Source: a virus
Direction: 5' to 3' (one strand)
Virus record (IMG/VR): IMGVR_UViG_3300023179_000612
Location: 1 to 20,556 of that record
DNA: 20,556 bases
A model generated the notes under the pieces. It was not told where the DNA came from and did not search any database. It saw only the letters and a program-made list of their open reading frames with translations. A program made the position numbers and the translations under genes. Shown one piece after another: positions 16,815 to 20,459 of this stretch (position 1 is the first letter of the stretch; each line of letters begins with the position of its first letter).

Positions 16815-16862
16815 CAAATATACTACTTATATGGTAGTGTTTAGCAAGTTAACAAAAGTTAA
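16815..16862 (-). promoter_or_regulatory. Leftward promoter with tandem TTAAC repeats (P16.8)
   Basis: Minus strand: TTAAC-N5-TTAAC (16862-16848), TTG, 22 nt, TATATTTG (16822-16815), then 32 nt to ATG 16782. The distal repeat contains the TAA stop of the helicase gene. The 18-bp block (CAAGTTAACRAANGTTAA on the plus strand) is shared with P13.4. Confidence 0.68.
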
Positions 16863-18835
16863 AATGGACAATCCCCTTTAGGAGCCGCGCCCCCATTAGA
16901 AAACATATCATTGAGTTCTTGTTCCCACGGCATAGCGGACTCTATCTTGTAACCCTTCTCTTCGAGAAACTTTAAGTTTGGGTACACGTCACTTGGTTTC
17001 TTTGGCTTTTTCTCCTCCTCAAATTTCATTTCGGACTGAACAAACTTGTCGTCAATGTACTTCTGCATGTAGTCTGTACCGCCAAATGTGTACCTTCTGG
17101 TCGATCTGTTGAGTTCAAAGTCAAAACTACCCTTGACCCCAACTATTTTCTGCCTTCTGATTTTCTTTGAATGGAACTCACACGCAGGGTTGTCTGGGGT
17201 TGTCTGAGCAAACGGCCTGTGGTAGATTAAAATATTATCCGCCTTGTTATTCCACATCGCCCCGTCGGCAAGGTCAAAGACATCAGGACAAGGGTAGTTG
17301 CCATCGTCTCCCTTTTTCATCTTGTGAGGGTTGACAACAACATCGAAGTACACGTTGTTCTTTTTGGCAAACCTCGTACAATCAGAAAGGAAGGTTTCAA
17401 GGTATTTGTCGCTTCTTCCCCCGCTCTTTCCATAGTCGTTCGCCATCTGGTTAAAGGGGTCAATCACAACCCGCTCAACCCCATGCTTGACAACGAGACT
17501 GAGGAAAACTTCTTTTACATAATTCGGTGTCGGGCTTACGCTCTTTGGGTACACCATGAAGATATTTTCCCCAATCCAATCATACACCTTCATGTACGAC
17601 TCGTGGTGCGGTCTCATAGGGTTTCTTGGCGTGCAATCCCTTCCGAAATAAATCTCAACAAGGTCGTGGTAGAACTGCTCTGCCGGTAATTCTTCGGGTG
17701 TGAATATGGCGACCTTTTCACCAAATCTTATGAGCCTGAAAAGCATCTCCCATTTCATGAAACTTGACTTTCCGTAGTTACCTATACCGCTGATTACAGT
17801 AAGGTCTCCCTTCACCCTTTTGAAGTGCTTATCAAGTTCAGGTACACCTAGTTCTTTGGCTTGAATGTATCCGTTGAGGTAAATTGATTCGGCAAACGAT
17901 CTAACGTCAGAGGCGTAAATGACATCCTCCTTGCCCATCTCTTCGAGGTTCTCCTCGGTGAGAACAACGTCAACCTTGGTCCCGTCTATTTTGGTTACAA
18001 GAACATCGTCCTTGAATTCCGCGGTTGCAAATTGCGCTGAACTTGACTTGTAGGCACTCTTTACCGCGCTCTGACACTCTAACCTTGTGAAACTTGAGTC
18101 TGCGCTCACATAACCCAAAATTAAGATTTGAGCTTCGTTCTCAGGGATTCCAAAACGGCAACAAGCTGAGGCGAGTTTGAACACAAAGTGGTTTCTCTCC
18201 CCCTCTCTAAACGCGTCTCCTCGCGAGGTCATCCACTTAATCAACTTCCCAAACACATCATCTCCGCTTTGAACAACCATTGCGATCATTTCCCTCTTTT
18301 CCTTTGAGGCAATCTTGTCGTACTCCTTGGCGTTTTTGTTTATGTATATTTCGGGGTCATAAGACTCAAAACACAGTCTCGATAGGTTTTTCCCGGTCCT
18401 GTCAACGCCTGGGATTTCATCGAGCATCGACATGAAGTGTTCGTTGTGTAAGTTCTTGTGTTTTATCCTCACAAGCGCCTTTACTCCCTTCCCGCTCGGA
18501 GATACCCAAGTTGCCGTGACGTAAGAAAGTTTGGAAAGTTGCTCCTTCTTCTTTTTTACATCTTCAACCCCATCAAAGTCAAGGACGATGTACCCGGAAT
18601 GCTCAATCAACTCAGAGTCCTTTCTTGACTTAAATGTTCCGCTGAAACACACGGCAGGCAAGGTTTTCTTTACCTCGTCGGCTTCTTTTTTGGGCAGGCT
18701 TTGTGCCTTCAAGACCGTGTCTTTCGACTTGCCTTGCGCGATTCTTTCGAGGGCCTTGTCAATGCTTATAACATGCCCGACTGTGTCGTTAAAGTTTCTG
18801 TAAATAGAAACATTACCAAGTGTTTTCTCTGTCAT
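16859..18835 (-). CDS. Primase-helicase: BT4734/VirE-N-like domain fused to DnaB-type ATPase
   Basis: This 658-residue protein has three parts. Residues 60-165 match the BT4734/VirE N-terminal domain common in Bacteroidetes (GYIVLDFDGV at 81-90, VSPSGKGVKALV at 111-122). Residues 205-265 look like a primase C-terminal helical domain. Residues 335-600 form a RecA/DnaB-type core with Walker A GIGNYGKS (350-357), Walker B VVIDP (456-460) and a VVNPHKMKKG segment. It should prime and unwind DNA at the fork. The C-terminus ends GDCPF, similar to an SSB tip. AGGAA precedes ATG 18835, which overlaps the initiator gene by 23 nt. Confidence 0.87.
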   Translation of the reverse strand: MTEKTLGNVSIYRNFNDTVGHVISIDKALERIAQGKSKDTVLKAQSLPKKEADEVKKTLPAVCFSGTFKSRKDSELIEHSGYIVLDFDGVEDVKKKKEQLSKLSYVTATWVSPSGKGVKALVRIKHKNLHNEHFMSMLDEIPGVDRTGKNLSRLCFESYDPEIYINKNAKEYDKIASKEKREMIAMVVQSGDDVFGKLIKWMTSRGDAFREGERNHFVFKLASACCRFGIPENEAQILILGYVSADSSFTRLECQSAVKSAYKSSSAQFATAEFKDDVLVTKIDGTKVDVVLTEENLEEMGKEDVIYASDVRSFAESIYLNGYIQAKELGVPELDKHFKRVKGDLTVISGIGNYGKSSFMKWEMLFRLIRFGEKVAIFTPEELPAEQFYHDLVEIYFGRDCTPRNPMRPHHESYMKVYDWIGENIFMVYPKSVSPTPNYVKEVFLSLVVKHGVERVVIDPFNQMANDYGKSGGRSDKYLETFLSDCTRFAKKNNVYFDVVVNPHKMKKGDDGNYPCPDVFDLADGAMWNNKADNILIYHRPFAQTTPDNPACEFHSKKIRRQKIVGVKGSFDFELNRSTRRYTFGGTDYMQKYIDDKFVQSEMKFEEEKKPKKPSDVYPNLKFLEEKGYKIESAMPWEQELNDMFSNGGAAPKGDCPF

Positions 18836-19490
18836 ATTCCTGTGTTTTAATTTGTTTTTGTTCTAATGGCTCATCCTCCCACCTTCTGTCTCGGAGGTAG
18901 CGAATGGGGTCCTTCCAATATTTTGGCTCGCGGCCCAACTTGTGGTTGTCCATGCCTTCCACGGCTAGTATCTGGTCGGCATCGGACATTTTATTCCAAA
19001 CAACTTCAGTTTGCTTCTTATCCACCTTCTTGTTGTATGAATTCCAAAAATCGCTGAATAGATATTTATTTGTTATTTCTTTCTTTGTTATATCTATATA
19101 TGTAGATGCGGGTTTTCGGATATCCGTTTTCCCGATATCCGTTTTCCCGATATCCGTTTTCCCGATGTCGGGTTTCCCGCATTCCGTTGAAAGTGGCTCG
19201 TAGTATACGATGTAGTTAAATCCACGCGACAAACCACCCTCCCCGACCATCCTGATGGACTGTATGTATCCAAGTGCCTCAAGCTCAAGCCAGGCGCTGT
19301 TTATAGACTCTTTTCCGTCCGTAAAGTAGTCGGTAAGTTTGGTTTTGTAGATTACCCAATCGGAGGGAAGCGACAAAAGGAACGAAAGAAGCCCCTTCGC
19401 CTTTAGGCTTATTCGGTTGTCTCTGAGGAATTCCGTTGGAATCATTGCGAAGGGAGCGTCCTTCGTCTTAATTATTTGTCCTGTATTCAT
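18813..19490 (-). CDS. Replication initiator (lambda O / replisome-organiser type)
   Basis: I chose ATG 19490 (MNTGQIIKTKDAPFAM) rather than a start at 19523 inside the leader hairpin. Residues 12-100 form a winged-helix domain (IPTEFLRDNRISLKAKGLLS, then a recognition-helix region ESINSAWLELEALGYI). Residues 105-126 are a tandem DIGKT repeat encoded by 15-bp DNA repeats. Residues 145-206 (FSDFWNSYNKKVDKKQTEVV through RRWEDE) resemble the C-terminal domain of phage replisome organisers. The 225-residue layout, with repeats between DNA-binding and partner-binding domains, parallels lambda O. The helicase gene follows directly. Confidence 0.8.
   Translation of the reverse strand: MNTGQIIKTKDAPFAMIPTEFLRDNRISLKAKGLLSFLLSLPSDWVIYKTKLTDYFTDGKESINSAWLELEALGYIQSIRMVGEGGLSRGFNYIVYYEPLSTECGKPDIGKTDIGKTDIGKTDIRKPASTYIDITKKEITNKYLFSDFWNSYNKKVDKKQTEVVWNKMSDADQILAVEGMDNHKLGREPKYWKDPIRYLRDRRWEDEPLEQKQIKTQEYDRENTW
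19104..19191 (-). repeat. 15-bp iterons inside the initiator gene (candidate origin)
   Basis: On the plus strand, CCGATATCCGTTTTC occurs at 19132-19146 and 19147-19161 exactly, with one change at 19117-19131 and degenerate copies at 19162-19176, 19177-19191 and about 19104-19116. The period is exactly 15 bp, so the reading frame is kept. A strongly AT-rich block (about 19050-19103) flanks the array. Confidence 0.72.
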
Positions 19491-19494
19491 AGTC

Positions 19495-19578
19495 AAAAAG
19501 AAAGCCCGCAAGAGCAACTTCACGGGCTAAATTAGGGTAAGATTAGTTACCTATCAAGCCCTCGTTTGCTGTTGCTCT
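19495..19578 (-). promoter_or_regulatory. Candidate attenuator leader of the replication operon
   Basis: Leftward, AGCCCG (19528-19523) can pair with CGGGCT (19508-19503) and is followed by TTTCTTTTT, a terminator just before ATG 19490. Competing with it, AGAGCAAC (19578-19571) can pair with GTTGCTCT (19518-19511), GGGCT (19561-19557) with AGCCC (19528-19524), and TAGGTAA with TTACCCTA (19553-19533). The two folds exclude each other, as in transcription attenuators. Confidence 0.6.
19527..19557 (-). promoter_or_regulatory. Possible second promoter inside the leader
   Basis: Minus strand TTG (19557-19555), 20 nt, TAATTTAG (19534-19527) matches P13.4 in spacing and box. A transcript from here would begin near 19522 and lack the 5' arm of the terminator, so it would escape attenuation. 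It may instead be a chance match within the hairpin sequence. Confidence 0.35.
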
Positions 19579-19602
19579 AAACAAACGACGACTGGACAAG
19601 GG

Positions 19603-19636
19603 CAAATGTATGGGATAAAACACTTCGAATGTCAAA
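19603..19636 (-). promoter_or_regulatory. Leftward promoter of the replication operon
   Basis: Minus strand TTTG (19636-19633), 22 nt, TACATTTG (19610-19603). Spacing is slightly long. The expected start near 19597 gives a leader of about 105 nt that includes the attenuator-like structure. Confidence 0.55.
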
Positions 19637-19660: not shown

Positions 19661-19691
19661 TTGACTTGACTATTATATTTTCATACATTTG
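19661..19691 (+). promoter_or_regulatory. Rightward promoter, divergent from the replication operon
   Basis: TTG (19661-19663), 20 nt, TACATTTG (19684-19691), with ATG 19696 only 4 nt later. The -7 box is identical to that of the leftward promoter, suggesting balanced divergent expression. Confidence 0.65.
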
Positions 19692-19695
19692 CCAA

Positions 19696-19917
19696 ATGAC
19701 AAATTTAAGACCACCCGATGAGTGCGCTTTTGTTGAGGTGCTGAACATGGGAAAGACTCACATAGACGCCATTGTAAAATCAGTAGGCCCAAACTGTGAG
19801 CTTGAAGTTGGCCAAAAGATTGGCACAACAAAAAAAATATTTAAAGTTGAAGTCCAAGGTGCTGACGTTTACTCCGTCAACATGAGGGACGTATTATTTA
19901 TTTCCGAAAATGGATAA
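19696..19917 (+). CDS. GroES-like co-chaperonin-type small protein
   Basis: I start at ATG 19696 (MTNLRPPDECAFVEVL), because the earlier in-frame TTG at 19666 lies inside the promoter. The 73-residue product follows the GroES strand order: ECAFVEVL, then DAIVKSVGPNCELEVGQKI, a short loop, YSVNMRDVLFIS. The VGPN...VGQKI and MRDVLFI segments match the two best-kept GroES stretches. It is shorter than the usual 95 residues and lacks an obvious mobile loop. Phages such as T4 encode GroES substitutes for capsid folding; that role is inferred. Confidence 0.52.
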   Translation: MTNLRPPDECAFVEVLNMGKTHIDAIVKSVGPNCELEVGQKIGTTKKIFKVEVQGADVYSVNMRDVLFISENG

Positions 19918-20209
19918 AAGAAGGAATAATTGGAAACGAGCCATAGAGGTTTCTAAAAGGCTCCTTGCCGAAGAGGTTGAAATTTACGAGGTAATGAGAA
20001 TATTCACACCCATGTCCTCCGGCGCGAGAAAAAGATTTCTATTGTGCGACATCGACATAACCGAAAAGGATCTTGACGAGGTCGATAGGGCAATTAGCGG
20101 TTACAAAAAAACCCTTGAAGAAATAAGCAGCACCAGAATAGAAAAGCGCGTCAAAAGGAGTATGTTTTTCCAAACACTAAAAGAGCATTATGATAAGAAC
20201 AAAGTCTAA
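19910..20209 (+). CDS. Hypothetical helical charged protein, 99 residues
   Basis: Starts MDKRRNNWKRAIEVSKRLL; highly charged and helical throughout, with a basic N-terminus and alternating acid/base segments (DITEKDLDEVDRAISGYKK). It could be a nucleic-acid-binding or coiled-coil adaptor. It overlaps the GroES-like gene by 8 nt and the next gene by 20 nt, so all are translated as one unit. No family is recognised. Confidence 0.72.
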   Translation: MDKRRNNWKRAIEVSKRLLAEEVEIYEVMRIFTPMSSGARKRFLLCDIDITEKDLDEVDRAISGYKKTLEEISSTRIEKRVKRSMFFQTLKEHYDKNKV

Positions 20210-20459
20210 AGAAAACTACGCCAAGATTATTGAGGTTTTCTCTTATTACTTGGAAAGGGATGATCTCGGTTGTCACGACGCGGAATTTCTCATGCAAGAT
20301 GAGGACGCCAATGAGTTGTTTAATTATTCTTACCACACGCTTCGCAGGGCTGTAATAAAGCTCAGAGACAAAAAGAACATAGGCAAGAAAAACTTTGACA
20401 AGCAAAAGGAGATATTAAAAATCTACAAAAACAAAAGAAGTGAGTTACCAAGAGGTTGA
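20190..20459 (+). CDS. Hypothetical 89-residue protein, possible helix-turn-helix
   Basis: Starts MIRTKSKENYAKIIEVFSYY. The C-terminal half (NYSYHTLRRAVIKLRDKKNIG) has the pattern of a recognition helix followed by a basic tail, so DNA binding is possible. It overlaps both neighbours in other frames. No family is recognised with confidence. Confidence 0.66.
   Translation: MIRTKSKENYAKIIEVFSYYLERDDLGCHDAEFLMQDEDANELFNYSYHTLRRAVIKLRDKKNIGKKNFDKQKEILKIYKNKRSELPRG

Follow-up and report, generated by a model that had tools for sequence, protein, structure and literature searches.

A putative kissing-loop attenuator in the leader of a phage replication operon

The window analyzed here, i.e., the whole 20,556-nt stretch of the virus record IMGVR_UViG_3300023179_000612, carries a replication operon on its minus strand that is preceded by a short leader with two prominent hairpins. 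The first gene of this operon encodes a protein of 225 amino acids that matches the replication initiation proteins of phrog_270 and also the DnaD-like phrog_186, and it is followed by a primase/helicase gene. Inside the initiator gene, tandem 15-bp repeats that encode DIGKT repeats adjoin a set of AT-rich repeats, the same arrangement as in lambda-type origins, where iteron-like repeats lie beside AT-rich repeats inside the initiator gene lambda O. By this analogy, we infer that they are candidate origin iterons and a candidate unwinding region, respectively. The features of the locus are as follows:

16859-18835, minus strand: primase/helicase gene, next in the operon (phrog_18375, 2.2e-52)
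18813-19490, minus strand: replication initiator gene, first of the operon, 225 amino acids, MNTGQIIKTKDAPFAMIP... (phrog_270, 1.6e-17)
19065-19103, minus strand: AT-rich 15-bp repeats adjoining the candidate iterons, within the initiator gene
19119-19188, minus strand: tandem 15-bp repeats (about 4.7 copies), within the initiator gene
19491-19502, minus strand: U-tract TTCTTTTTGACT between terminator hairpin and start codon (from sequence)
19503-19528, minus strand: terminator hairpin AGCCCGTGA-[AGTTGCTC]-TTGCGGGCT (from sequence and covariation)
19511-19518, minus strand: kissing segment a', GTTGCTCT, in the terminator loop (from complementarity and covariation)
19536-19551, minus strand: small linker hairpin GGTAA-ctaatc-TTACC (from sequence and folding)
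19562-19588, minus strand: 5'-proximal hairpin 1, TCGTTTGTT-[TAGAGCAAC]-AGCAAACGA (from sequence and covariation)
19571-19578, minus strand: kissing segment a, AGAGCAAC, with the core GAGCAAC at 19571-19577 (from covariation)
19603-19610, minus strand: -7 promoter box TACATTTG of the Bacteroidota type TAnnTTTG (from sequence)
19630-19636, minus strand: -33 side of the leader promoter, with TTGACA at 19630-19635 and TTTG at 19633-19636 (from sequence)

In the direction of transcription, the region 19610-19488 thus presents the promoter box, hairpin 1, the linker hairpin, the terminator hairpin, the U-tract, and the ATG. TAnnTTTG is the known -7 element of Bacteroidota promoters, and we predict that the leader transcript starts around 19595-19598 and is about 107 nt long, with a spacing of about 14 nt between box and hairpin 1. 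An earlier note, made from this sequence alone, had considered that transcripts might start only at about 19522 and would then never contain the complete terminator arm, but the conserved box lies upstream of every element of the leader. The motif TAnnTTTG occurs 29 times in the window (19.5 expected), and the same TACATTTG box is found at 19684-19691 in a divergent promoter (19661-19707, plus strand) that faces an opposite gene cluster at 19666-20459.

The structures described in the earlier note are all present. The terminator hairpin (19528-19503) has nine pairs, five of them G-C, an 8-nt loop, and a T-rich tail as typical of intrinsic terminators, and TTCTTTTTGACT leads directly into the initiator ATG at 19490. 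The 8-nt segment said to complement the terminator's loop side does so perfectly (AGAGCAAC at 19578-19571 and GTTGCTCT at 19518-19511), and a 5-nt segment, GGGCT (19561-19557), is complementary to AGCCC (19528-19524) in the terminator's 5' arm. The inner 7-bp hairpin was only partly recognized: its seven strict base pairs exist, but the full stem (TCGTTTGTT/AGCAAACGA) comprises nine pairs including a U-G and a U-A pair, and AGAGCAAC sits inside its loop (UAGAGCAAC). Since GTTGCTC in turn lies inside the terminator loop (AGUUGCUC), a loop-loop or kissing interaction is the natural reading, and the perfect complementarity of the loops means that they could pair without opening either stem. Such a contact is compatible with the terminator and does not, on its own, create a mutually exclusive nested fold.

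The leader fold is predicted at -35.9 kcal/mol compared to -24.5 kcal/mol for dinucleotide shuffles (more stable than 200 of 200; z -3.6), and when both strands of the window were scanned for hairpin pairs with complementary loops and a T run, the leader came out as the strongest site by far. However, single-sequence shuffles gave modest p values (about 0.035 for the 8-nt match) and were therefore replaced as proof by permutation and covariation tests on relatives, which we collected because the match was only mildly unusual by itself. Protein-guided scans of IMG/VR yielded 279 locus entries with a usable leader, with many contigs counted repeatedly, and 91 unique related leaders in 50 clusters.

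In nine of the 50 clusters, the initiator is operon-internal and has no such leader directly before it. In all 41 clusters with the initiator right behind its own leader, inspection and loop-match tests revealed a 5'-proximal segment that matches a loop in the terminator. This segment is nearly always a hairpin loop, the complementarity spans 6-9 nt, and it is kept across about 30 different loop-pair sequences. For the permutation test, hairpin 1 was located blind to the terminator and then matched to its own or foreign terminators, giving a mean match of 6.6 nt to the own terminator and 3.9 nt to those of other leaders. None of 20,000 permutations that swapped terminators among leaders reached the observed mean, which is itself lowered by two clusters in which the script misplaced hairpin 1 (L026 and L064) and two that are operon-internal (L031 and L066).

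The layout around these loops is similarly recurrent. Almost every leader has a TAnnTTTG-like box 1-23 nt ahead of hairpin 1, and the box positions predict leader RNAs of about 82-121 nt in most relatives. In 75 of 77 annotated leaders, a stretch of eight nt close to the ATG contains at least six T, and such tracts are mostly absent where the initiator is operon-internal. At L031, an extra gene has been inserted before the initiator and the element sits ahead of this gene, so that it belongs to the head of the operon and not to the initiator gene. Among the whole or partial phage genomes that we scanned, the kissing-terminator element was the only convincing site of its kind.

We then examined covariation in an alignment of 29 distinct leaders of the window's subfamily. 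Its three helices, i.e., the kiss and both stems, are 98.8% paired, a value that falls to 36-47% when the partner strand is slid by 1-3 columns. In the kissing helix of 7 bp, every cell is paired (100%), three of the seven pairs carry double-sided changes (GC to AU, CG to UA, and AU to CG), and none shows a one-sided change, so that the compensatory changes for which the earlier note had proposed to look do exist. Three pairs with double-sided changes each were also found in the stem of hairpin 1 (96.6% of cells paired) and in the terminator stem (100%). In contrast, the GGGCT/AGCCC helix shows no double-sided change and performs no better than shuffled columns, and we therefore rejected it as a conserved feature. 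Column shuffles are easily exceeded by related sequences, and weight was thus placed on the variety of letters, the sliding control, and the independent subfamilies. Decisive for the reality of the element is that the complementarity of the apical loops is kept across relatives while their letters change. The small GGTNA..TNACC linker hairpin recurs in many members of the window's subfamily but is not seen in most other subfamilies.

These other subfamilies commonly have loops of seven pairing nucleotides plus one extra 5' base, often A. One of them carries the loop pairs AGTCGCAG/ACTGCGAC, AGTAGCAG/ACTGCTAC, AGTCGAGG/ACCTCGAC, and AGTAGAGG/TCCTCTAC, another has GTGGCTT/AAGCCAC and ATGCAG/CTGCAT together with a GGAA-TTCC mini-hairpin inside the terminator, a third has GTTGCAG/CTGCAAC and GTCGGAT/ATCCGAC, and a fourth GTAGTATG/CATACTAC and GTAGTGTG/CACACTAC; the loop pair of L002 is AGAACCAC/GTGGTTCT. 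The clearest single case is the pair L015 and L017, two loci with 97% identity over 5.8 kb whose 190-nt leader stretches are identical apart from three compensated pairs, loop a reading CTC in one and GCG in the other and loop a' correspondingly GAG and CGC. In this subfamily, the 190 nt before the initiator also contain a second long complementarity, CTATTACATT/AATGTAATAG, beside the kissing pair.

Changes inside and outside the kiss number six and none for L015/L017, five and three for L029/L030, and five and four for L113/L271. Across all close leader pairs, however, differences affect 10.6% of kiss positions against 9.9% in the remaining leader, and we therefore rejected the idea that the kiss generally evolves faster, even though each of its changes needs a matching one on the opposite side. 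Accelerated change is suggested by individual cases such as L015/L017 alone, and these provide a weak hint of selection on loop identity as a model with action in trans predicts.

Taken together, the compared leaders establish a conserved geometry of two hairpins with complementary loops whose complementarity, as judged from these alignments, is maintained by selection. They strongly suggest that the second hairpin acts as an intrinsic terminator and thereby controls access to the replication operon, and the kissing element would then probably set how often the replication genes are read. A terminator leader ahead of the initiator operon combined with compensatory loop complementarity makes attenuation-type control most likely. 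The attenuation logic of the earlier note thus holds, with kissing loops in place of its nested antiterminator, while neither a metabolite nor a protein ligand found any support. Overall, we assign a probability of roughly 0.68 to the reading that the element is a kissing-loop transcription attenuator heading a phage replication operon.

Under this attenuator reading, the leader RNA would start with a hairpin whose 6-9-nt loop is complementary to the apical loop of a terminator just before the initiator AUG, and the frequency of read-through would depend on whether the hairpin 1 loop pairs with the terminator loop as the latter emerges. That loop pairing alters termination at all is something we infer. 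Read-through would set the level of initiator expression and, given the presumed origin inside the initiator gene, might by analogy also bring transcription across that origin. The polarity that we favor is a kiss in cis that forms during synthesis of the terminator's 3' arm, delays closure of the terminator, and so permits read-through; a rapid kiss could have this effect because loop a' emerges from the polymerase at roughly the moment of 3'-arm synthesis. Equally, a stacked kissing complex could stabilize the terminator. Under the favored polarity, leaders already terminated on other genome copies might occupy the loops in trans, promote termination, and create a copy-number feedback. Each terminated leader carries both loops, so that leaders could pair mutually and termination would become more frequent as genome copies accumulate.

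Within this model, we are least sure of the trans step and of the polarity. In its strong form, the terminated leader RNA itself would be a dose-dependent and loop-specific trans regulator that binds nascent leaders and shuts down the replication operon, a self-antisense copy-number switch that we regard as a tentative idea with the odds against it. If it were true, the matched variable loops would constitute incompatibility or superinfection-exclusion types that diversify like the incompatibility groups of plasmids.

An attenuator with the opposite polarity is unlikely. Here, the kiss in cis would strengthen termination, with hairpin 1, kiss, and terminator forming a stable stack that terminates efficiently at all times and holds operon expression down unless a phage protein or the upstream transcript overrides it. 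The topological compatibility of the kiss with a closed terminator and kissing duplex energies of about -4.5 to -13 kcal/mol fit this proposal, but strong termination does not require a kiss, and a constant strengthening effect leaves the re-lettering of still-complementary loops unexplained. Quite improbable, in our view, is a translational or stability element in which the loop contact holds a hairpin by the start codon and governs ribosome access or RNA decay, the U-tract being merely an unstructured A/U-rich translation start region as usual in Bacteroidota. The a'-bearing hairpin does abut the start codon, ending 7-36 nt before the AUG in annotated leaders, and no Shine-Dalgarno sequence is visible in the leader of the window. 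However, translation control has no need for a G+C-rich hairpin followed by the T-tract seen in 75 of 77 leaders, a combination that is the hallmark of intrinsic terminators. Least probable is the nested attenuator of the earlier note, in which AGAGCAAC/GTTGCTCT and GGGCT/AGCCC would form a ligand-switched antiterminator excluding the terminator: its fold exists (-31.4 kcal/mol, just 4.5 kcal/mol less stable than the terminator fold, and within 1.5 kcal/mol before the 3' arm is made), but its 5-nt helix lacks covariation, the leaders of other subfamilies, though different and simpler, still have complementary loops, and there is no Rfam match.

Known systems resemble parts of this element. In ColE1 (RNA I/II) and R1 (CopA/CopT), complementary hairpin loops control replication and the loop sequence sets specificity, but these loops lie on two RNAs from opposite strands, whereas both are found in one leader here. 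The c4 RNA of phages P1 and P7 is an antisense RNA co-transcribed with its target from the same strand; it controls an antirepressor operon. The c4 motif is listed in PMC2864571, and the leader has no Rfam match to it. The gene behind the pT181 attenuator is a replication initiator. Attenuators of the pT181 type comprise a leader terminator, a 5' sensing hairpin, and loop-loop (kissing) control (PMC4878617), and our element shares with them the terminator in an initiator leader, the 5' hairpin, and the loop-loop contact, which is predicted in our case. However, pT181 relies on an antisense RNA that is made separately, and its antiterminator pairs with the 5' arm of the terminator, while the pairing conserved here is to the terminator loop and not the 5'-arm helix GGGCT/AGCCC. 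The window shows no sign of a separate antisense gene, and we rejected a separate trans RNA encoded there because AGAGCAAC has no exact 8-mer copy in the window beyond the leader pair. On the plus strand, no TAnnTTTG box lies within the leader, and one inside the initiator gene (19334-19341) could in principle drive antisense transcription.

The CI RNA of P4 is derived from a leader, pairs with segments of the same leader, and controls premature termination before replication genes (PMC4825925, citing Sabbattini 1995 and Briani 2000). Here, complementarity within the leader and a predicted terminator likewise precede phage replication genes. Unlike here, where the partners are two whole hairpin loops, one of them the terminator loop, CI RNA arises by processing from inside the transcript, and its partners are seqA and seqC. 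P4 CI RNA and pT181 attenuators are precedents for the parts of the trans-feedback idea. P4 is also a temperate satellite, whereas searches for a tyrosine integrase (25 virus records) and for a resolvase (21 records) found neither in these records, which may be fragments. We therefore provisionally set aside a role in lysogenic immunity and consider control in the lytic cycle or in superinfection more likely.

Promoter type and two Cytophagaceae MAG contigs point to Bacteroidota as the host phylum. These contigs (L131 and L132) were all that a search for prophages in Bacteroidota genomes returned, one being met again among 395 genomes, and they carry a weaker version of the element. There, a distant initiator relative is preceded by a 7-nt match, CCCTTCC/GGAAGGG, that joins the presumed transcript start to a hairpin loop inside the terminator without a clear hairpin 1, possibly a reduced form. 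Among named cultured phages, only distant, operon-internal initiator relatives occur in Bacteroides phages C1_85S2P and BF695P2, and no convincing kissing-terminator site emerged when Flavobacterium phage 11b and 17 kb of BF695P2 were scanned. Searches of the open literature returned nothing matching kissing terminators in phage leaders. We also rejected a known riboswitch or leader RNA family because the only Rfam match above gathering score was a tRNA gene in the window (RF00005; 11332-11402, minus strand), and ten relatives had none.

The element represents a family of putative phage regulatory RNAs, apparently absent from Rfam, that is spread across many phage lineages with Bacteroidota-type promoters and is placed exactly at the control point of genome replication. 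Kissing-loop control of replication is classic in plasmids, and a one-strand phage version would link replication timing to plasmid-style incompatibility. The about 30 natural loop pairs could be useful for synthetic RNA regulators, and they make action in cis or in trans directly testable. Finally, among the virus records L002, L010, L083, L089, L092, and L112, several related contigs measure 64-70 kb and others about 32-35 kb, a pattern that would fit tandem double genomes, or a separate class of genome size, for some of them.
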